Shown: one piece after another, positions 29 to 38,090 of the stretch
How positions within the stretch are numbered: position 1 is the stretch's first letter
Layout of the letters: the number at the start of each line of letters is the position of its first letter
Origin: a virus
Length of the DNA stretch: 38,163 nt
Direction: 5' to 3' (one strand)
IMG/VR virus record: IMGVR_UViG_3300049006_000005
Coordinates: 1-38,163 of that record
The notes under the pieces: generated by a model
Told to the model about the DNA's origin: nothing
What the model saw: only the letters and a program-made list of their open reading frames with translations
Database searches by the model: none
Translations under genes and position numbers: made by a program

Positions 29-192
29 CCAGCCGGGGCCTGTACCAGGACGACGAGCTGAGCAACCGCAAGGGCCACAAGCTGACCGTCCTCTGGTTGA
101 GCAACGATGCGGCCATCGTCCGGGACCACGCCACCGGCGAGAAGCTGACCGGGATGATCGAGGACATCAAGGCCGCGGGCTACCGGGCCTGA
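1..192 (+). CDS. Small early protein, 3' part (gene crosses the contig junction)
   Basis: This is the C-terminal part of a gene that begins at 38091 on the other end of the circle; joined, it encodes 78 residues (MIKFDADILDE ... AAGYRA). It has no family I recognise. It is hydrophilic, of mixed charge, with no membrane segment or cysteine. The stop (190-192) is followed closely by a strong hairpin terminator, so the gene appears to be transcribed alone from the promoter at 38015-38045. Function unknown; position and promoter suggest an early gene. Confidence 0.85.
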   Translation, partial: GITETASHTTSRGLYQDDELSNRKGHKLTVLWLSNDAAIVRDHATGEKLTGMIEDIKAAGYRA

Positions 193-200
193 CCAGAAGC

Positions 201-220
201 CCCCCGGCTACGGCCGGGGG
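201..220 (+). terminator. Terminator of the junction-spanning gene
   Basis: Perfect 8-bp GC stem (CCCCCGGC / GCCGGGGG) with a TACG loop, followed by a pyrimidine tract. It starts 9 bp after the stop codon. The loop and stem core are nearly the same as in the terminator at 549-570, so the two neighbouring single-gene cassettes share both promoter and terminator design. Confidence 0.8.
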
Positions 221-285
221 CCTTCCCCTTGCCCGACCGGTTGCATGGACCAACCAACCGTCCCGGTGAATATCTTCAGCACGAC

Positions 286-322
286 TGCGCCAGAACTGCG
301 GCAGTCGTGCTACACTTCTTGC
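286..322 (+). promoter_or_regulatory. Early promoter with paired 7-bp boxes (P2)
   Basis: Boxes TGCGCCA (286-292) and TGCGGCA (297-303) start 11 bp apart. Seven bases later comes an extended -10, TGC-TACACT (311-316). The stretch from box 2 through the -10 to the ATG is almost identical to the promoter at 38026-38054. There is no TTGACA-like -35; box 1 and flanking bases occupy that position. The ATG at 323 begins 7 bases after the -10, so the transcript should be leaderless or nearly so. Confidence 0.75.
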
Positions 323-541
323 ATGACGACGACGCGAGTGACCTACACCAGCATCGCTCCGGGGGCCGAGGTCCTGATGGAGATCGGCTACGACGGATCC
401 CTGTTCCCGACCACCAAGCGGTCCGGCCAGTGGGTCACCGTGACCGGTGTCGAGCGCAAGGGCCGACACGCCCGGCTGGTCACCGCGGACAACGCGACCC
501 AATGGGCCAACCCCGGCGCCAAGGTCACGACGAGGGCCTGA
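323..541 (+). CDS. Small early protein, probably translated from a leaderless mRNA
   Basis: Encodes 72 residues (MTTTRVTYTSIAPG ... AKVTTRA). The frame stays open upstream to 245, but the ATG at 323 is preferred because it coincides with the predicted transcription start and has no Shine-Dalgarno sequence; leaderless mRNAs are common in actinobacteria. The sequence reads as a small beta-rich domain (VLMEIGYDGSLFP, GQWVTVTGVERKG) with no cysteines or membrane segments. It is a single-gene unit between its own promoter and a terminator. Function unknown. Confidence 0.75.
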   Translation: MTTTRVTYTSIAPGAEVLMEIGYDGSLFPTTKRSGQWVTVTGVERKGRHARLVTADNATQWANPGAKVTTRA

Positions 542-632: not shown

Positions 633-665
633 TGCGGCAGTTGTGCCGCAGATCCATGGTAGGGT
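633..665 (+). promoter_or_regulatory. Operator palindrome and promoter of the RHH gene (P3)
   Basis: TGCGGCA (633-639) and TGCCGCA (644-650) form a perfect 18-bp inverted repeat around GTTG, with box starts 11 bp apart. Nine bases downstream is an extended -10, TGG-TAGGGT (660-665). The gene starts at 697 with a GAGGACG-type ribosome site. The operator overlies the expected -35, which suggests autoregulation by the encoded RHH protein (inference). Confidence 0.7.
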
Positions 666-696
666 CGAGCTCCCCGGCAACCTGAGGACGGACGAG

Positions 697-939
697 ATGA
701 CCGGCAAGAATTCACGCGAGACGACTTCGCTGACGCAGGCGGAGGCGGAGGTGCTGGGCGAGCTGGCCGCGGTGGCTGGCTTGACGCGCTCGGCCCTGAT
801 CCGGCTGCTCTGCATCGACGGCCTTCGCCGGTACGCCCCGGAGCGGCTCCCGCTGACTGTGGTCAACGAGGCGAAGCTGGCCAAGTTCCGGCTCACCAGC
901 ATCGCCGATGAGGCGCAGGACAGCTTGATCGGCAGCTGA
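697..939 (+). CDS. Ribbon-helix-helix (RHH/CopG/Arc-like) DNA-binding protein
   Basis: Encodes 80 residues. Residues about 9-43 fit the RHH fold: a short strand (TTSLTQAE), helix 1 (EVLGELAAVAG), the tell-tale turn LTRSALIR, and helix 2 (LLCIDGLRRYA). Such proteins dimerise and insert a two-stranded ribbon into the major groove, often binding tandem half-sites 11 bp apart as Arc does. The gene stands directly behind a perfect palindromic operator, and the same 7-bp box recurs at four other phage promoters, so it is a strong candidate for the phage's early regulator. The frame is open far upstream, but ATG 697 has the CTGAGGACG ribosome site. The roughly 35-residue C-terminal tail is unassigned. 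Confidence 0.8.
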   Translation: MTGKNSRETTSLTQAEAEVLGELAAVAGLTRSALIRLLCIDGLRRYAPERLPLTVVNEAKLAKFRLTSIADEAQDSLIGS

Positions 940-983: not shown

Positions 984-1562
984 GTGACCACCGAATCGGA
1001 ACGACTGCGAGCCGTCGACCATGCACGGTTCAGTCCGGACGCGTACGACAGCAGCGTCACGACCGACCTGCGCCCGGCAGCGTTCGATCAGCTGCGCGAA
1101 GAGAACACGACGCTCGCGACCGAGAACGAGCGGCTGCGCACGGCGCTCGCCGTGACCGAGGCAGCGCTCGCCGATTCAGCCGACGAGAACGCTCGGGTGC
1201 GCAGCCAGCTGGCACAGGTGAGCGGCTGGCACCAGACTATCCGGGAGGGACGCGAGATCGACTCGGATACGTTCCTCCGGCGCATCGACCGGCTTCGCCG
1301 TGCGCTCGTCCGGGAGCGGCAGAATGTCGTCCGGCTGGCCGGGCACGTAGCCGATGACCACGAGGCGATGGACCGGGACAGCGAGACGCGCGACCGCCAA
1401 GCCGTCATGATCCGCACGCTCTCCAACCAGCGTGCCGACCTGCTCGGCGCGACGCGTCAGGCCGGTGACGCGCTCCTGACCGCGGTCGCCGAGCGCGACG
1501 AGGCGCGGCGTGCGATCGAGGCGTTCGCCGCGCGGCTGCGGCCGGTGTCCGATGGAGAGTGA
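984..1562 (+). CDS. Coiled-coil early protein
   Basis: Encodes 192 residues from GTG 984, which follows the start-associated sequence ACGAGAGGAC (969-978). From about residue 30 onward it is nearly all helical heptads (LREENTTLATENERLR, AERDEARRAIEAFAARL), charged, cysteine-free and without membrane segments. It overlaps the next gene by 11 bp (ATGGAGAGTGA), so the two are translationally coupled, and both use the phrase AERDEAR. They may form a hetero-oligomer (inference). No catalytic motif and no family recognised. Confidence 0.8.
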   Translation: MTTESERLRAVDHARFSPDAYDSSVTTDLRPAAFDQLREENTTLATENERLRTALAVTEAALADSADENARVRSQLAQVSGWHQTIREGREIDSDTFLRRIDRLRRALVRERQNVVRLAGHVADDHEAMDRDSETRDRQAVMIRTLSNQRADLLGATRQAGDALLTAVAERDEARRAIEAFAARLRPVSDGE

Positions 1563-2550
1563 GCGCAGGCCGGACGAGCGGCCGACCGAGGTCGTCGCAG
1601 CGAACGAGGCGCACGAGCGGATCAACCTGCTCATCGATCGGCTGACCGCTCTCACGACCGAACGGGACGCGTGGCGGAAGCAGGCCACGGCCGATGGCGC
1701 CCGGTGCCAGAAGTTGCACGCCGAAGTGGCAGACCTGCGTGAAGCGTTGAAGACGGTGCCGGTCGCCGACTTTGTGCAGCGCTCGACGGAAACGCCCGAC
1801 AGCGTGGCCGCGCTCAAGCGGGACCTGGCGCAGGCGCTCGCCCGTGCCGAGGGAGCCGAGCGCGCTGCCGCAGCCGCCCGGATGCAGCGGGATACCTACC
1901 TCGCCCGGCTGACCCGCGAACGTGACGAGTTACTCGAACAGATCGAGAACCACGTCAAGGCGTACGAGTTGGTGCAGCGCGAACGGGACGAGGCGCGCAA
2001 CGACCTAAAGCGCGCGATGTCCAGCCGGCAGGGTGCGCAGGACGAGCACGTGAAGCAGGCGTTCGCCAAGCGTGATGAGGCACGGCGTCAGCTCGCCGAA
2101 GCGCAGCAACGCGCCAGCTATTACGAGCAGCTCAACGTCCGCGAACGCGTCAGCCGTGAGGCGTACGAGGTGGCGTCGGCCGAACGGGACGAGGCGCGAA
2201 AGCAGGTCAGCGCGCTGACGGACGAACTTGAACGGTCGGCCGGAACTACGCGCATCAACGAATTGCGCCACGAGCTCATTGTCGAAGACCGCAAATTTAC
2301 TGCGCTCGAAGAGTTGCACCGGGCGACGCAGGCCGAACGGGACGAAGAGCGCGAGCACCGGATCTTAAACGAGCAATGGGCGCTGCGCGAACAGGCTCGT
2401 GTCCACCACTACAGACGGCTCTATGGCCGGGCGCGGGTGGCGTGGCAACTCGTCGTCGATGCGCGCGGCGGGCTGGCCGCCCTGCTCGACGGCATCGATG
2501 CGGCCGATGAGACGTTCGACTCCGACATCAACGCTGACCAGGAAGGCTGA
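1552..2550 (+). CDS. Long coiled-coil early protein with repeated ERDEAR motif
   Basis: Encodes 332 residues from ATG 1552, inside the end of the previous gene. It is an almost continuous coiled coil with degenerate ERDEAR/ERDEL repeats (LTTERDAWRKQA, LTRERDELLEQI, VQRERDEARNDLKR, FAKRDEARRQLAE, ASAERDEARKQV, TQAERDEEREHR) spread over residues about 40-280. There is no Walker motif, so it is not an SMC or RecN ATPase. It sits just upstream of nuclease and replication genes. A scaffold or filament role is only a guess. Confidence 0.8.
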   Translation: MESERRPDERPTEVVAANEAHERINLLIDRLTALTTERDAWRKQATADGARCQKLHAEVADLREALKTVPVADFVQRSTETPDSVAALKRDLAQALARAEGAERAAAAARMQRDTYLARLTRERDELLEQIENHVKAYELVQRERDEARNDLKRAMSSRQGAQDEHVKQAFAKRDEARRQLAEAQQRASYYEQLNVRERVSREAYEVASAERDEARKQVSALTDELERSAGTTRINELRHELIVEDRKFTALEELHRATQAERDEEREHRILNEQWALREQARVHHYRRLYGRARVAWQLVVDARGGLAALLDGIDAADETFDSDINADQEG

Positions 2551-3346: not shown

Positions 3347-5344
3347 ATGACTGACATTACCGGGTACCCGGACAGGGGCTGGCCACTCGCCGAAGCTGCT
3401 CTCTGGTACGCCGCGCAGGGCTGGCCGGTTTTCCCGCTGCACCACGTGGTCAGCATCGACGGAACCGAGTACGACGCGTGCACGTGCAAGGCCGGCGGCA
3501 ATCCTGGCTGCCTGGACAAGGGCAAGCACCCGCGGACGATCCACGGCTTCAAGGACGCCACGACGAATGCGTCGATCGTGCGTGGCTGGTGGGAGGTCTG
3601 GCCGGACGCGAACATCGGCATCGCGACCGGCTACCCGTTCGCGTTCGTGGTGGACGAGGACGTGCCGGGCGCGCTGCACATGGCCTACCCGGTACTGCTC
3701 GACGACCGCGACATGGTCGAGCAGGCCACGCCGAACGGGCGGCACCTCCTGTTCAGCGCAGCTAGCAACCGGCTGGATCCGGAGTTGCCCGAGCTCGGCA
3801 ACAGCACCGGCGGACGTGGCCGGTCACTCGGTCCGGGCATCGACACCCGCGGCCGGGGCGGCTACATCGTGGCGTGCCCGTCGGTGACGCCGTCCGGCCG
3901 GTACGTGTGGCGGTCAGACCCGCGCGGGCCGTGGCCGATGCTTCCGGCTCCGATGGAGGAAGCGCTGCGTCCGAAGGCTCTCAAGCCGATGGGTGAGCTA
4001 TACAACTATTCTTCGTCGGACGACCGGATCAGCCGGTACGTCGAATCCGCGGTCGAGGCTGCGGCCAGTGAGCTGCGCTCGGCCGCCCAGGGCAACCGCA
4101 ACCACACGCTCAACGAGGTCGCGTTCCGGCTCGGCACGATCGGGGCGCACGGGGCGCTTCCGTCCTCGACTGCGTCGGCCGCACTTGTCGCGGCGTGGTC
4201 GGACCTGTTCCCGGAAGGTCTGACACCGGACGGGCGCGCCTCGTTCGGCAAGACGTTCAACTCCGGGTGGGCGTCCGGACTCGAACGGCCGCGGGAGCCG
4301 TGGCCGCCGGCGACAGCCGGGGCCGGGCTCGGTTTCGTGCCGGCCGGGTGGACGCCGGGCGCGGCCGGGCCGGTGCTGCTCGCCGCGGACACAGAGCCCG
4401 GCGCGGTTGCCGGACCGGTGCCGCTGGTCTGGGGAGAGTTTCTCGACCGGGACATGACGAAGGCCGAGTGGGTCGCCGGCGACCTGTTCGAAGCCGGGCA
4501 GCAAGTTGCACTCGTCGGCGCGGGCAAGGCGGGCAAGTCGTTGCTCGCGCTGGAGTGGGCGCAGCACATTGCCGCGGGGCGGCCGTACCTCGGGGCGGTC
4601 GGCCGTCCACCACGGCGGGTGGGCTACCTCGACCACGAGAATTCCCAGCGGGATATTCAGCAACGGGCACTCGCGTTCGGTTTCTCGGCCGAAGACCTGT
4701 CCGGGCTGTCGTACTACTCGTTCCCCGTTCTGCCGCCGCTCGACAGCCGGGCGGGCGGACGCGCATTGCTGGCACTGGTGATCGATGGGGGAATCGAGTG
4801 CCTGTTCCTCGACACCGTGTCGCGAATGATCGAGGGACCCGAGAACGAGTCGGATACGTGGCTGAACCTGTACCGGTACTCACTCATGCCGTTGAAGGCA
4901 CTCGGCATCGCCACGGTGCGTCTCGACCACTTCGGTAAGGATCATGACCGTGGGGCGCGTGGTTCGAGTGCCAAGACGCAGGATGTTGATCACGTGTGGA
5001 CGCTGACGAAGAACGAGGGTGGATCGCTCGTCCTGAACCGAACCCACTCACGGACGGGGCTCGGGCGTGAGGAGTTGCAGCTGATCCGTCACGGTGAGCA
5101 GACCGAGGACGGATGGACACCGGGCGCTACTCGTCACGTGGTGAGCGACATCGCGTTCAAGCCGGCCGAGTGGCTCTGGCGGATCGAGGCCGGCAAGCGG
5201 CTCGACGAAGCGGGAGTGCCGGCCGGAGCCGGAGTGCCGACCGTCCGGGCGTCGCTTGCCCGGATCGGCATCAAGGCTGGGACGACTCGGCTAGAGGATT
5301 TGGTCAGATGGCGTAAAGCGGGAGGAAACGATTCTTCTTCCTAA
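3347..5344 (+). CDS. Bifunctional primase-polymerase / RepA-like helicase
   Basis: Encodes 665 residues. Residues about 13-195 form a Prim-Pol domain: cysteines in DACTCKAGGNPGC (44-55), GKHPR, WPDANIGIATG, catalytic VVDED (D103, D105), and GRHLLF (H133). Residues about 360-570 form a RecA-like ATPase of the RepA/AAA_25 kind: Walker A GAGKAGKS (391-398), Walker B ECLFLD (D489), and a RLDHFGKD sensor-like segment. Fused Prim-Pol/helicases initiate and drive replication in many actinophages and plasmids. The ATG follows a start-associated sequence at 3326-3335, 11 bp upstream. The downstream hairpin region may be the cognate origin. The short C-terminal tail ends GNDSSS. Confidence 0.92.
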   Translation: MTDITGYPDRGWPLAEAALWYAAQGWPVFPLHHVVSIDGTEYDACTCKAGGNPGCLDKGKHPRTIHGFKDATTNASIVRGWWEVWPDANIGIATGYPFAFVVDEDVPGALHMAYPVLLDDRDMVEQATPNGRHLLFSAASNRLDPELPELGNSTGGRGRSLGPGIDTRGRGGYIVACPSVTPSGRYVWRSDPRGPWPMLPAPMEEALRPKALKPMGELYNYSSSDDRISRYVESAVEAAASELRSAAQGNRNHTLNEVAFRLGTIGAHGALPSSTASAALVAAWSDLFPEGLTPDGRASFGKTFNSGWASGLERPREPWPPATAGAGLGFVPAGWTPGAAGPVLLAADTEPGAVAGPVPLVWGEFLDRDMTKAEWVAGDLFEAGQQVALVGAGKAGKSLLALEWAQHIAAGRPYLGAVGRPPRRVGYLDHENSQRDIQQRALAFGFSAEDLSGLSYYSFPVLPPLDSRAGGRALLALVIDGGIECLFLDTVSRMIEGPENESDTWLNLYRYSLMPLKALGIATVRLDHFGKDHDRGARGSSAKTQDVDHVWTLTKNEGGSLVLNRTHSRTGLGREELQLIRHGEQTEDGWTPGATRHVVSDIAFKPAEWLWRIEAGKRLDEAGVPAGAGVPTVRASLARIGIKAGTTRLEDLVRWRKAGGNDSSS

Positions 5345-5647: not shown

Positions 5648-6228
5648 GGAACGTGGTCGCGTACGCCTGCGGGAGCGAGTCGTACGCCTGGTGCGGCTGG
5701 TGCCGGCAGTGGCGGTCGTACGGACGGCTGACCGCGGATGTGCTCGTGGTGCGGCCGTCCGGGTGCAGCAAGGAGCGGAACCTGGACTGCCCGGATCGGG
5801 ACAACGCGCTGGTCACGGTGTGGCCGGTGCCGGTGGAGGTGCCGGTTGTGCGCAAGGGCGGGGATGGGTGGAGCGGTGGACCACTACCGATATCGGGCAT
5901 TTCGCCTGGGAAGAGGAGTGAACCAAGTGGTTCACATGCCGGCGTGATGCTGCCGGTCGGCAAGCGCCGGGTGAGCCTCTGCCGGTTTGGTGCCAAGAAC
6001 GGATGGCGTGTCCGGATGCAGAACGCGATCGGACCATGGGATGTCCTGTCGAGCACCGGCAAGGTCATCCGCACACGTGTCATCGAATCGTGCGTCATTC
6101 GCTTCGATCGTGATGCGGATGCCGTAGTCGTCGCGTACCATGAAGACAGATTCGCGTTCGCACTCGCTCACGGCAGAGGACGTCTCGGAGCGAACGAGCT
6201 CCGGCCGCTACTGAAAGAGAAGAACTGA
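5644..6228 (+). CDS. Unknown early protein with Cys-rich N-terminus
   Basis: Encodes 194 residues from GTG 5644, overlapping the previous TGA (GTGA). The N-terminal part has paired cysteines (YACGSESYAWCGWC, SGCSKERNLDC) that could bind zinc. The middle (about residues 72-100, GGDGWSGGPLPISG) is low complexity. The C-terminal part (from MLPVGKRR, about residue 102) is a separate-looking basic domain. A second start, ATG 5947 in TGATG, could begin an independent gene of 93 residues, so this may be two genes or a fusion. Function unknown. Confidence 0.6.
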   Translation: MRNVVAYACGSESYAWCGWCRQWRSYGRLTADVLVVRPSGCSKERNLDCPDRDNALVTVWPVPVEVPVVRKGGDGWSGGPLPISGISPGKRSEPSGSHAGVMLPVGKRRVSLCRFGAKNGWRVRMQNAIGPWDVLSSTGKVIRTRVIESCVIRFDRDADAVVVAYHEDRFAFALAHGRGRLGANELRPLLKEKN

Positions 6229-32964: not shown

Positions 32965-33849
32965 CTAACCGATGCGTGGCGGCATGGGTGCCGGTACCTC
33001 GTGCGCGCGCTCGCCACCCTGATAGATGCAGAACGCACTGAACGCGCACGACTTGCAGAACGACGACGGCCGGGGCAGGAACAGGCCACCGTTCTTCATG
33101 AACCACGCCGTCGCGACGCCGTACTCCACCGTGACGCGTGGATGGCTGACGGCCAGCTGCAACCGCGGCGTGGTCCGTGCCGTCCGAGCCATGAAATATT
33201 CGCCGCGCATCGTGTCGTACGGGATACCCCAGAGCGCCTCGAGGCTGACCCCGTACTCACCGAGCTGCGTCGTCGAGGTCGGCGTCCGCTTGCCGGCTTT
33301 GAGATCCCGGACGATCAACGCCGACTTGTTCGGGAACTTCCGGACCTGGTCGATGTACCCCTTGAACGGCACGCCCGCGATCGTGACCATGAATTCGACC
33401 TCGACGGCCGCGCGCCCGTCCGGCGTCGGAGCCAGCTCGGTCTGGTCGTCCTCGGACTGGAGTACGTAGGCCCGGACCATCCCGGCCCCGTGCTCGCGCC
33501 ACCACGCCTCGTCCTCGACACCGCGGGCAGCGATGCGCCAGGGCACCGGATGCGCGACGATCTCGCCGTTCGCGTCCGGCCATGCGCCCTTGACATAGTC
33601 GGCTTCCGCCTCGGACAGCTCGGTCTCGAATACCCGCGAAAACTCCTCGACCGCCTGATCGATGCTCGGTTCCTCGCGCTCGAACCGCTCGCGTTCCCAG
33701 TACTCGATGGCGGAGTGGTAGGCCCGGCCACCGACGTTCCACATGGCCGGCGTCTCCGGTACGCCGACCACCCGGCCGAGCCGGTACTTCTCGCCGCAGT
33801 CGGTCAGTGTCTCGACCTGGGAGTGCGAGAGGTAGACGGGTGGCGTCAT
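32965..33849 (-). CDS. RecB/Cas4-like exonuclease with Fe-S cluster
   Basis: Encodes 294 residues. PD-(D/E)XK core: GGRAYHSAIEYWE, then FKGYIDQV (Asp), ALIVRDLKAGK (D-x-K) and QLGEYG. One cysteine near the N-terminus (LTDCGEKYR) and three at the C-terminus (FCKSCAFSAFC) match the four ligands of the [4Fe-4S] staple in Cas4/AddB nucleases. It probably resects DNA ends for recombination or replication restart. The start (ATGA overlap with the methyltransferase stop) shows translational coupling. Confidence 0.87.
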   Translation of the reverse strand: MTPPVYLSHSQVETLTDCGEKYRLGRVVGVPETPAMWNVGGRAYHSAIEYWERERFEREEPSIDQAVEEFSRVFETELSEAEADYVKGAWPDANGEIVAHPVPWRIAARGVEDEAWWREHGAGMVRAYVLQSEDDQTELAPTPDGRAAVEVEFMVTIAGVPFKGYIDQVRKFPNKSALIVRDLKAGKRTPTSTTQLGEYGVSLEALWGIPYDTMRGEYFMARTARTTPRLQLAVSHPRVTVEYGVATAWFMKNGGLFLPRPSSFCKSCAFSAFCIYQGGERAHEVPAPMPPRIG

Positions 33850-34532
33850 CGGTCCAGCCCCTTCATCAAGTGCTCTCCGATATAGCGCGTGTACGCGGGC
33901 GGGATCGCTTCCGTCAGCGCTTCCCACTCATCGGTCCAGTCGATGCCCATAGCGGCCTGCGCTTCGGTCACCGTGGCTTTGCCGCCACCCTTGCCATACA
34001 CGGCGACGTACGGGCCGTCGTGCTTGACGCCGTGCCGCCATCCACGCGTCCGGCCGCGGGAGGGGGCCTGCACCGGCTGTGCGGGCGGGTCGACGTTGCC
34101 GAATTCGAACCAGCGGGCGCGCTTCACGTCGAGACCGAACATGTCGCCGTGCAACTTCAGGTCCTTGCGGATCAGGCGCGATCCTCCGACCGGCTGCTCG
34201 ATGACCCACGGGACGTTCGCCCGGAGCAACGCGTCACGCGTCTTGCCGGTGAGCGACACGTGCTCGTTCGGCTTGCCCTTCTGGTTGCCGAGGTTGATCG
34301 CGCAGTCGGCCTGGCACGGCGGCGAGGCGTGCACGATCGCGAACGGAAACGGCCGGGCGCAGGCCCATTCGCTGCGGAGGAACTGGATAGCGTCCTCCTC
34401 GACGAACTCGTCACCGCAGTAGTCCGGCCGCTTCACCTTGTCGACGCCGACGACGTAAAACCCAGCCTGTTGGTAGCCGCGGGTCGCACCGCCCGCGCAG
34501 CAATAGAGGTCGAGCGCTACGGGTTTCTTCAT
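33846..34532 (-). CDS. Compact C5-cytosine DNA methyltransferase
   Basis: Encodes 228 residues. Motif I LDLYCCAGGATRGYQQAGF, motif IV SPPCQADC (catalytic C73), a motif VI-like WVIEQPVG (ENV replaced by EQP), and a C-terminal IPPAYTRYIGEHLM. It is much shorter than typical 5mC methyltransferases (300+ residues) with little room for a target recognition domain. It may protect phage DNA from restriction; specificity cannot be predicted. Overlaps both neighbours by 4 bases. Confidence 0.85.
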   Translation of the reverse strand: MKKPVALDLYCCAGGATRGYQQAGFYVVGVDKVKRPDYCGDEFVEEDAIQFLRSEWACARPFPFAIVHASPPCQADCAINLGNQKGKPNEHVSLTGKTRDALLRANVPWVIEQPVGGSRLIRKDLKLHGDMFGLDVKRARWFEFGNVDPPAQPVQAPSRGRTRGWRHGVKHDGPYVAVYGKGGGKATVTEAQAAMGIDWTDEWEALTEAIPPAYTRYIGEHLMKGLDR

Positions 34533-34921
34533 GCGCTCTTCACGTTTACGTCGGTCAATGCGCTGATCGTGTACTCGCCACTGGCGAGGGTCACCCGGAC
34601 GGTCAACTGCACCTTCGTCACCTTGAGAACCTTCTCGAACGATCCGGTGAGGTTGACCAGCACGCCCTTGCGGAGGTCGCTCGCCTTGATCCGGCCGTTC
34701 TCGATCCGGGCGCGGCGGACGGCCGACTTCAGCGTCTTGTACGTGCCGATGCGGGCGTCGACGAAGAGGACGTAGCGAGCGGCTTCGCGGCTCGGACCGG
34801 CCAGCCGGACGGTGCATACGCCTTCCTGCCACACGATCTCGTTCACGGCGTCGGCGTTGAACGGGATGACGTAGGACGGCGCGGGAGTGTGGAACTCGGT
34901 CACGATCTCGGCGTTGTTCAT
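34529..34921 (-). CDS. Unknown early protein
   Basis: Encodes 130 residues, first gene after the leftward promoter at 34957-34987, with start-associated sequence at 34927-34936. Mostly beta strands (APSYVIPFNADAV, GVCTVRLAG, YVLFVDARIGTYKTLK, KVQLTVRVTLASGEYTI). No motif recognised. Coupled to the methyltransferase (ATGA). Confidence 0.68.
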   Translation of the reverse strand: MNNAEIVTEFHTPAPSYVIPFNADAVNEIVWQEGVCTVRLAGPSREAARYVLFVDARIGTYKTLKSAVRRARIENGRIKASDLRKGVLVNLTGSFEKVLKVTKVQLTVRVTLASGEYTISALTDVNVKSA

Positions 34922-34956: not shown

Positions 34957-34987
34957 ACTGTAGCACAATTGCGGCACTACTGCGTCA
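34957..34987 (-). promoter_or_regulatory. Leftward promoter with paired 7-bp boxes (P4)
   Basis: On the minus strand: boxes TGACGCA (34987-34981) and TGCCGCA (34976-34970) start 11 bp apart, then 7 bases, then extended -10 TGC-TACAGT (34962-34957). The box-to-minus-10 spacing equals that of the promoters at 286 and 38015. It overlaps the stop of the upstream gene and should drive the 130-residue protein, methyltransferase and exonuclease. Confidence 0.72.
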
Positions 34988-36601: not shown

Positions 36602-37579
36602 TCAGTCGACCGGGCGCCAGCACCCGTCAGGAGCGCGCACCACATCGGCGACGATGCGGCCGAGCATCCTGATCGTGAACCGGCCGAACGTCACACGGCT
36701 GGCCGTTGCGTACACGGCTGGTTCGACGTCCTCCCCGACACGGAACAGCCCACCCGGACCGACATACGTCCATCGCCTGTCAGCGCCGTGAACCCAGAAC
36801 GGATTCTGCGTGCCTTGCGGCTCGGCGTCCTCGGCAGTCGCGCTCGCGATGTCGTGCCCCAGAGCATGACCAGCCGGGAGGATGCACGGGCGCTTCGAGA
36901 CCAGGCCGACGAACGTGCACGTTCCCGCCGCGGGCCGGTTGCCGCCATCGGCCACGACCTGCTCGTGCTGCCGGTCGGCCGCATAGGCGTCGCGCTGGAC
37001 CGCTGTGGTGGACGGCGCAAGGTCAACCGGAGCCCACGAGTGGTTACCCGGCAGCGCGCGGCCGAGGTGCTGCGGCCGGGTGCAGGTCTGGCCGTCGCCC
37101 GAGTCGATGCCGCAAAGGTTGGTTGCTGCATCCATCGGCTTCGGCCCCTGCGTCAGCGGGAAGTCGTCCTCGATCCGGTCCACACGCTCGGCGGCCACGA
37201 GCGCAGCTGCCGCCTCGGCACGCAGCGAGACGTACTCGGCCTGCACGGCGTTGATGTCCTCGCCGACGAAGTCGATCTTGCGGAGGTAGGCGAGAGCGTG
37301 GATGTGGGCGGCATCCTTGATCAGCTGCCGGGCACAGTTCCGGCGCAGCTCACCGTCCGGCTCCGTCTTGATGAGGTAGGCCAGCCCGGCCGTGGTCAGC
37401 GCGTGATCGCTGAATCCGTCCGGCGACGGCATCCGCGGCGTGAGCAGGCCGCGGTCAATCAGGCCCACGGTCGTGGCCAGCCGGACGCCGGAGACGTGGC
37501 GGACCGCTTCCGGCTTCCCGGTCAGCCGGCTGGCATACCAGCGAAGCAGTTCGATCATCAGGGGGGTCAGCTTGCGCAT
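36602..37579 (-). CDS. Unknown early protein with winged-helix-like N-terminus
   Basis: Encodes 325 residues; start-associated sequence at 37586-37595. The N-terminal part (PLMIELLRWYASRLTG, ATTVGLIDRGLLTPR, HALTTAGLAYLIK) reads like a winged-helix of the kind that scores repeat/repeat-end boundaries in phage proteins. A helical region follows (YVSLRAEAAAALVAAERVD), then a Cys/His-containing part (NLCGIDSGDGQTCTRPQHLG and later TCTFVGLVSKRPCILPAGHALGH) that looks like two degenerate copies of a C-x(n)-C-x(n)-H-x-x-G-x-H zinc motif. Function unknown. Confidence 0.7.
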   Translation of the reverse strand: MRKLTPLMIELLRWYASRLTGKPEAVRHVSGVRLATTVGLIDRGLLTPRMPSPDGFSDHALTTAGLAYLIKTEPDGELRRNCARQLIKDAAHIHALAYLRKIDFVGEDINAVQAEYVSLRAEAAAALVAAERVDRIEDDFPLTQGPKPMDAATNLCGIDSGDGQTCTRPQHLGRALPGNHSWAPVDLAPSTTAVQRDAYAADRQHEQVVADGGNRPAAGTCTFVGLVSKRPCILPAGHALGHDIASATAEDAEPQGTQNPFWVHGADRRWTYVGPGGLFRVGEDVEPAVYATASRVTFGRFTIRMLGRIVADVVRAPDGCWRPVD

Positions 37580-37607
37580 CGTCTCGTCCTCTCGGCAGGG
37601 GTTTGCT

Positions 37608-37644
37608 CCGGGGACCGGCTTACGTTTATTCGGCCGGTCCCCGG
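37608..37644 (-). terminator. Hairpin after the first leftward gene
   Basis: Perfect 11-bp stem CCGGGGACCGG / CCGGTCCCCGG, 15-base loop that contains the stop codon of the 67-residue gene. It lies 12 bp before the next start-associated sequence. Confidence 0.7.
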
Positions 37645-37829
37645 GACCTTCCGGGCAAAACCGCATCGCGCGGCTTTCCCCAGTTCTTGCATTTGGGCTG
37701 GTCCGACTTCTCCGACGGCCCGACGTGCTCTGACAACAGAACATCCGATCCGAAGGTTGTGAGCCTGCACCTTGCTCGGATCGGCAGCGCCACCAGTTGC
37801 TCCAATGTTGCCTTTAGACCCCGATTCAC
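37626..37829 (-). CDS. Small first leftward early protein
   Basis: Encodes 67 residues from GTG 37829 behind AGGAG. Sequence begins MNRGLKATLEQLVALPIR and ends basic (KCKNWGKPRDAVLPGRS). It is the first gene after the leftward paired-box promoter and ends inside a hairpin. Not recognised. The bases around the start form TAGGA-C-TCCTA, a small palindrome that could hide the ribosome site. Confidence 0.55.
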   Translation of the reverse strand: MNRGLKATLEQLVALPIRARCRLTTFGSDVLLSEHVGPSEKSDQPKCKNWGKPRDAVLPGRSRGPAE

Positions 37830-37908
37830 TAGGACTCCTACGGGGAGGACTCAGGACTTCCTGCGCTGCCTCGATGTTCAGTTATCAACCTGCGGCCTTA
37901 CGAGAAGA

Positions 37909-37941
37909 ACCGTACCACAACTCTGCCGCAGTTGTGCCGCA
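37909..37941 (-). promoter_or_regulatory. Leftward early promoter with paired 7-bp boxes (P5)
   Basis: TGCCGCA occurs at 37924-37930 and 37935-37941 (plus-strand reading), 11 bp apart in direct orientation. Nine bases beyond lies the minus-strand -10 TACGGT (37914-37909), preceded by GTGG. The 9-bp spacing equals that of the RHH gene's promoter. Confidence 0.68.
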
Positions 37942-38014: not shown

Positions 38015-38051
38015 TGCCGCACAACTGCCGCAGTCGTGCTACACTTCTTGC
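38015..38051 (+). promoter_or_regulatory. Rightward early promoter with paired 7-bp boxes (P1)
   Basis: TGCCGCA at 38015-38021 and 38026-38032, seven bases, then extended -10 TGC-TACACT (38040-38045). The run from GCAGTCG to TTGCATG is identical to 301-325. An ATG at the predicted transcription start (38052) is in frame with the ATG at 38091, so a 13-residue longer leaderless form is possible. Confidence 0.75.
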
Positions 38052-38090
38052 ATGCGGGAGGGACAGCCACCCGGACGAGAGGACATCGAA

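Follow-up and report, generated by a model that had tools for sequence, protein, structure and literature searches.

A candidate ribbon-helix-helix autorepressor and five phased box pairs at the early promoters of a 38-kb virus of actinobacteria

Five early promoters of a 38-kb virus from the actinobacterial host group each carry two short boxes one helical turn apart, raising the question of which protein reads these boxes and whether, once bound, it closes the promoters or opens them. The window (the whole stretch of DNA that was analysed), 38163 bp long, is a virus record from IMG/VR, and the 28 terminal bases are identical at both ends; the assembly is thus in all likelihood circular, so that promoters near the right end supply genes at the left. 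Alignments of the terminase (73% identical), primase and methyltransferase led to a single close relative (L125), and a search for relatives with the primase alone found none. L125 is colinear with the window from 4529 to about 20200 and lacks the early region, so that kinship cannot answer whether the ribbon-helix-helix (RHH) protein reads the boxes. Window 3347-5344 encodes a Prim-Pol fused to an AAA helicase, the helicase half being 48% identical to that of Streptomyces phage mu1/6.

A sequence-only reading had listed five pairs of the box TGCSGCA with starts 11 bp apart, and all five were found where it placed them (Table 1). Exact pairs at this spacing number three, against 0.005 per dinucleotide shuffle (maximum 1 in 200 shuffles), and pairs with at most one mismatch number five, against 0.085 expected in shuffles (maximum 2); no other box spacing from 7 to 40 bp gave more than two pairs. 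Perfect TGC-N-GCA palindromes make up eight of the ten boxes, and all five pairs are intergenic and upstream of genes. An 18-bp matrix built from the five pairs scores them at 24-27, followed by matches at 13, which are the overlapping in-phase partners of the same five sites, and then by matches at 8; scanning the genome with this matrix found no sixth site. Among 50 whole viral records of distant relatives, 5 contain one such pair and none contains more. The box pairs are therefore a strong and real regulatory pattern, far beyond chance.

The promoters at 286 and 38015 have 25 identical bases in common (GCAGTCGTGCTACACTTCTTGCATG) and, from this identity, are probably one promoter duplicated, which leaves about four independent sites. 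The same 25 bases speak for an account in which the boxes have no regulator at all and belong to a copied early-promoter cassette, with a spacer favoured by the host RNA polymerase. Yet the remaining three promoters, which include both spacings and both strands, differ outside the boxes while keeping the 11-bp pair, and box 1 is unlike a -35; we regard the cassette as very improbable.

Table 1. Coordinates of the box pairs and of the genes they precede
Feature	Position	Strand	Remarks
Operator 1	286..303 (boxes 286/297)	+	TGCGCCA-GAAC-TGCGGCA
Operator 2	633..650 (boxes 633/644)	+	TGCGGCA-GTTG-TGCCGCA; two boxes palindromic to each other
Operator 3	34970..34987 (boxes 34970/34981)	-	minus-strand read TGACGCA-GTAG-TGCCGCA
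Operator 4	37924..37941 (boxes 37924/37935)	-	TGCCGCA-GTTG-TGCCGCA
Operator 5	38015..38032 (boxes 38015/38026)	+	TGCCGCA-CAAC-TGCCGCA
72-aa gene, function unknown	323..541	+	under operator 1; ATG at 323, likely leaderless
Candidate RHH regulator, 80 aa	697..939	+	directly under operator 2
PD-(D/E)XK exonuclease gene	32965-33927	-	same leftward series as methyltransferase, under operator 3
DNA methyltransferase gene	33846-34532	-	after 130-aa gene of operator 3
130-aa gene	34529..34921	-	under operator 3
325-aa protein	36602..37579	-	first gene of leftward early unit under operator 4
Gene under operator 5	38052 to about 192, across circular join	+	ATG at 38052, likely leaderless

All five promoters have an extended -10 of the TGN type, at one of two distances from the boxes. 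In the 7-bp class the pair ends 7 bp before TGC-TACACT at operators 1 and 5 (TACACT 311-316 and 38040-38045, respectively) and before the minus-strand TGC-TACAGT at operator 3 (TACAGT 34957-34962). In the 9-bp class it ends 9 bp before TGG-TAGGGT at operator 2 (TAGGGT 660-665) and, leftward, before the minus-strand TGG-TACGGT at operator 4 (37909-37917), which resembles the TGG-TAGGGT of the 633 promoter. The distances of the three 7-bp promoters and of the 633 promoter are those first proposed; the 9 bp at 37924 is that of the leftward read. The direction originally given to the 37924 promoter is probably wrong: the rightward -10 is poor (TGTAGCAGT) and the leftward promoter TGGTACGGT fits better, so that transcription from it probably runs leftward, toward the leftward early unit. 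At the three 7-bp promoters, the TGCTACA of the extended -10 sits another 11 bp in phase with the boxes and resembles them as a degenerate third copy. In both the 286 and 38015 promoters the ATG follows 6 nt after the -10, and an ATG just after the -10 is the arrangement of leaderless actinobacterial mRNAs.

Both operator-bearing regions were scanned for consensus sigma-70 promoters and yielded none with a -35, bearing out the earlier claim that the boxed promoters lack this element. Its absence is what would be expected if the boxes were activator sites, at which the RHH protein or some other regulator would stand in for the -35 and bring in RNA polymerase by sigma adaptation, in the manner of SARP/AfsR proteins. 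However, a -35 is dispensable at extended -10 promoters, and a fixed contact sits awkwardly with two distances to the -10. The two spacing classes argue against a rigid activator contact and, together with the position of the boxes, are better accommodated by steric blocking than by a fixed contact with sigma. Taken with the comparison of the sites given below, activation by such a regulator appears unlikely.

Most of the five genes under the boxes are orphans; neither the 72-aa product of operator 1 nor the 325-aa protein of operator 4 has a Pfam or PHROG match. A similar G+C-rich inverted repeat (CCCCGGCTACGGCCGGGG) lies behind the genes at 38052 and 323 (window 192-230 and 545-575), so that each seems to make up a unit of its own, from promoter to terminator. 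The leader of 323 nt that separates the leftward promoter from its first gene (37580-37902, minus strand) is predicted to fold into an unusually stable structure (-141.9 kcal/mol, z -3.65). Its arms lie at 37731-37745/37873-37887, and 37608-37644 holds a perfect inverted repeat of 12 bp; the leader has no match in Rfam and could be an origin or a structured RNA. In the early region behind the RHH gene (window 984-2550), two adjacent genes encode coiled-coil-like proteins of unknown function.

The candidate reader is the protein of 80 residues encoded at 697. The position of its gene behind a box pair, suggestive of autoregulation, was correctly recognised from the start: the 633/644 pair ends 46 bp before the ATG, so that the gene is preceded by two subsites in tandem on the same face of the DNA. 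The assignment of the product to the RHH family holds as probable. Residues 10-42 match Pfam RHH_1 (E 0.0032, 17.8 bits, cut-off 20.5) and a NikA-like model (E 0.003, 18.1 bits, cut-off 27), both matches being sub-threshold, so that we treat the protein as a candidate and do not file it as a family member. Alignment with hhalign to a small phage RHH profile gave P 0.00029. The RHH HMM used locally was made from hand-written generic consensus strings and two candidates, and served as a rough filter only. The single-sequence AlphaFold model (pLDDT 75, pTM 0.44) has an extended segment at 1-13 and helices at 14-27, 31-46 and 53-79, and its residues 5-50 recurrently match RHH structures (PutA, KacA, Arc, CopG, AtaR and FitA), at low scores (VIA Z about 4, Foldseek E >1). 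Together, the profiles and the model suggest that the product is probably an RHH protein, with R7, T9 and S11 as its putative DNA-facing strand residues in an alignment made by eye. No homologue was found in phages (INPHARED), plasmids, IMG/VR or GTDB contigs.

The sub-threshold family call also lends weight to a different account, in which the boxes are operators read by another phage protein, for instance the 325-aa protein or one of the small orphans that an operator precedes, or by a host regulator, and the RHH gene is merely a target. That the boxes stand mostly over orphans fits this account, as does the N-terminus of the 325-aa protein, which resembles a winged helix by eye; against it, this N-terminus is predicted at low confidence (pLDDT 57) in a protein that matches no known family in the searches above, palindromic boxes one turn apart suit an RHH protein, and the association of boxes with an RHH gene is repeated in a second phage. 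The scan of early genes turned up no further clear DNA-binding regulator. We consider a different reader rather doubtful, and the 697 protein the likely one.

The second phage emerged from a wider search. The exact box-box-extended -10 pattern was not found in IMG/VR, and the relaxed pattern was found there in a single contig, L002, a relative of Synechococcus phage S-LBS1. Its pair, at 6064/6075, immediately precedes an RHH gene that exceeds the Pfam RHH_1 cut-off (24.0 bits against 20.5), and more phased boxes stand upstream of its annealing-protein gene (9 matches with no more than 2 mismatches, 1.6 being expected). In both phages, 11-bp-phased TGCNGCA boxes precede a (here candidate) RHH gene and a recombination gene; the difference is that L002 is an unrelated phage with less perfect boxes and an RHH likeness at the level of the fold only. 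A rough estimate puts the probability that its box-RHH association is due to chance at about 1 in 100, for an association noticed after the search. Three phased TGC boxes occur at at least 118 loci, and among the matches listed only L002 adjoins an RHH gene, the other 117 not. The exact pattern occurs in ten GTDB contigs, none of them actinobacterial by title, and a six-frame scan of these ten contigs found no RHH-like ORF. S-LBS1 itself keeps a syntenic RHH-like gene (A51) and lacks the boxes, and neither S-LBS1 nor S-H1 has a clear excess of them. Upstream of A51 (L364 31870-31900) is an inverted repeat, TGGGAA...TTCCCA, possibly a different operator. To judge by the parallel in L002, phages with no kinship to each other may repeatedly combine RHH proteins with phased TGC/GCA boxes.

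The account that we favour, with little more than even confidence, is that the 697 gene encodes an Arc/CopG-like RHH autorepressor that binds as one dimer per palindromic box and shuts off the five early promoters. A symmetric dimer on each box would suit palindromes that are spaced by one helical turn, and two dimers would lie adjacent on the same face of the DNA, 11 bp apart. The pair spans about -37 to -20, the landing zone of sigma region 4, which suits steric repression, and at three promoters the degenerate third in-phase box would bring a further site over the -10. Right after infection, the host RNA polymerase would start the five extended -10 promoters; as the protein level rises, the pairs would become occupied and initiation would be blocked at the protein's own promoter and at the other four, a negative feedback that would close both early directions. 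We infer that the effect of the bound protein is repression. If so, a phage without a close characterised relative would offer a compact, mapped early regulon of one small protein, five sites and two spacing classes.

This autorepressor account has a close precedent in P22 Arc at Pant, where a small phage RHH protein binds paired half-sites 11 bp apart and the operator lies between the -35 and the -10. The size of the (here candidate) RHH protein and the 11-bp spacing are alike, whereas the present phage is an actinophage with five operators, palindromic G+C-rich TGCSGCA boxes and extended -10 promoters, and its protein has no detectable sequence homology with Arc. CopG, the RHH copy-number autorepressor of pMV158, is likewise an autoregulated RHH protein, autoregulation being proposed for the candidate here, and controls one promoter where the boxes here mark five. 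The CopG structure matches the model of the 697 product with a VIA Z of 3.9 and 26% identity over 42 residues, and the DNA-facing strand residues, which we take to be R-T-T in CopG, would correspond to R-T-S in the by-eye alignment. The CopG subsites are also of the TGC/GCA type, and are closer together than the boxes here.

The sequence-only reading had further argued from the Arc geometry that family and sites agree; the 11-bp phase does fit an RHH protein, but it also fits the SARP/OmpR-type activators of actinobacteria, so that geometry alone cannot choose the family. In the AfsR/SARP sites of Streptomyces the repeats are spaced by 11 or 22 bp, and the 3' one overlaps a weak -35 and lies 8 bp from the -10 (PMC10936776). 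The 11 bp is thus common to both, and the distance to the -10 is near but not the same (8 bp there, 7 or 9 bp here). These activators, however, bind asymmetric direct repeats through a winged helix of the OmpR type, and the boxes here are palindromic; no SARP (OmpR-type plus BTAD) or OmpR-type domain was matched in Pfam among the phage proteins scanned, a host SARP being a possible reader. Both activation and repression are within the reach of an RHH protein, as AmrZ shows (PMC3325190). A phage RHH protein acting in the SARP manner, its tandem dimers replacing the -35 and switching on the five extended -10 early promoters, seems quite improbable; the activating circuit would in that case use an unrelated fold. 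The early region would be a convenient system in which to learn what makes palindromic box pairs, in phase with the -10, repress or activate.
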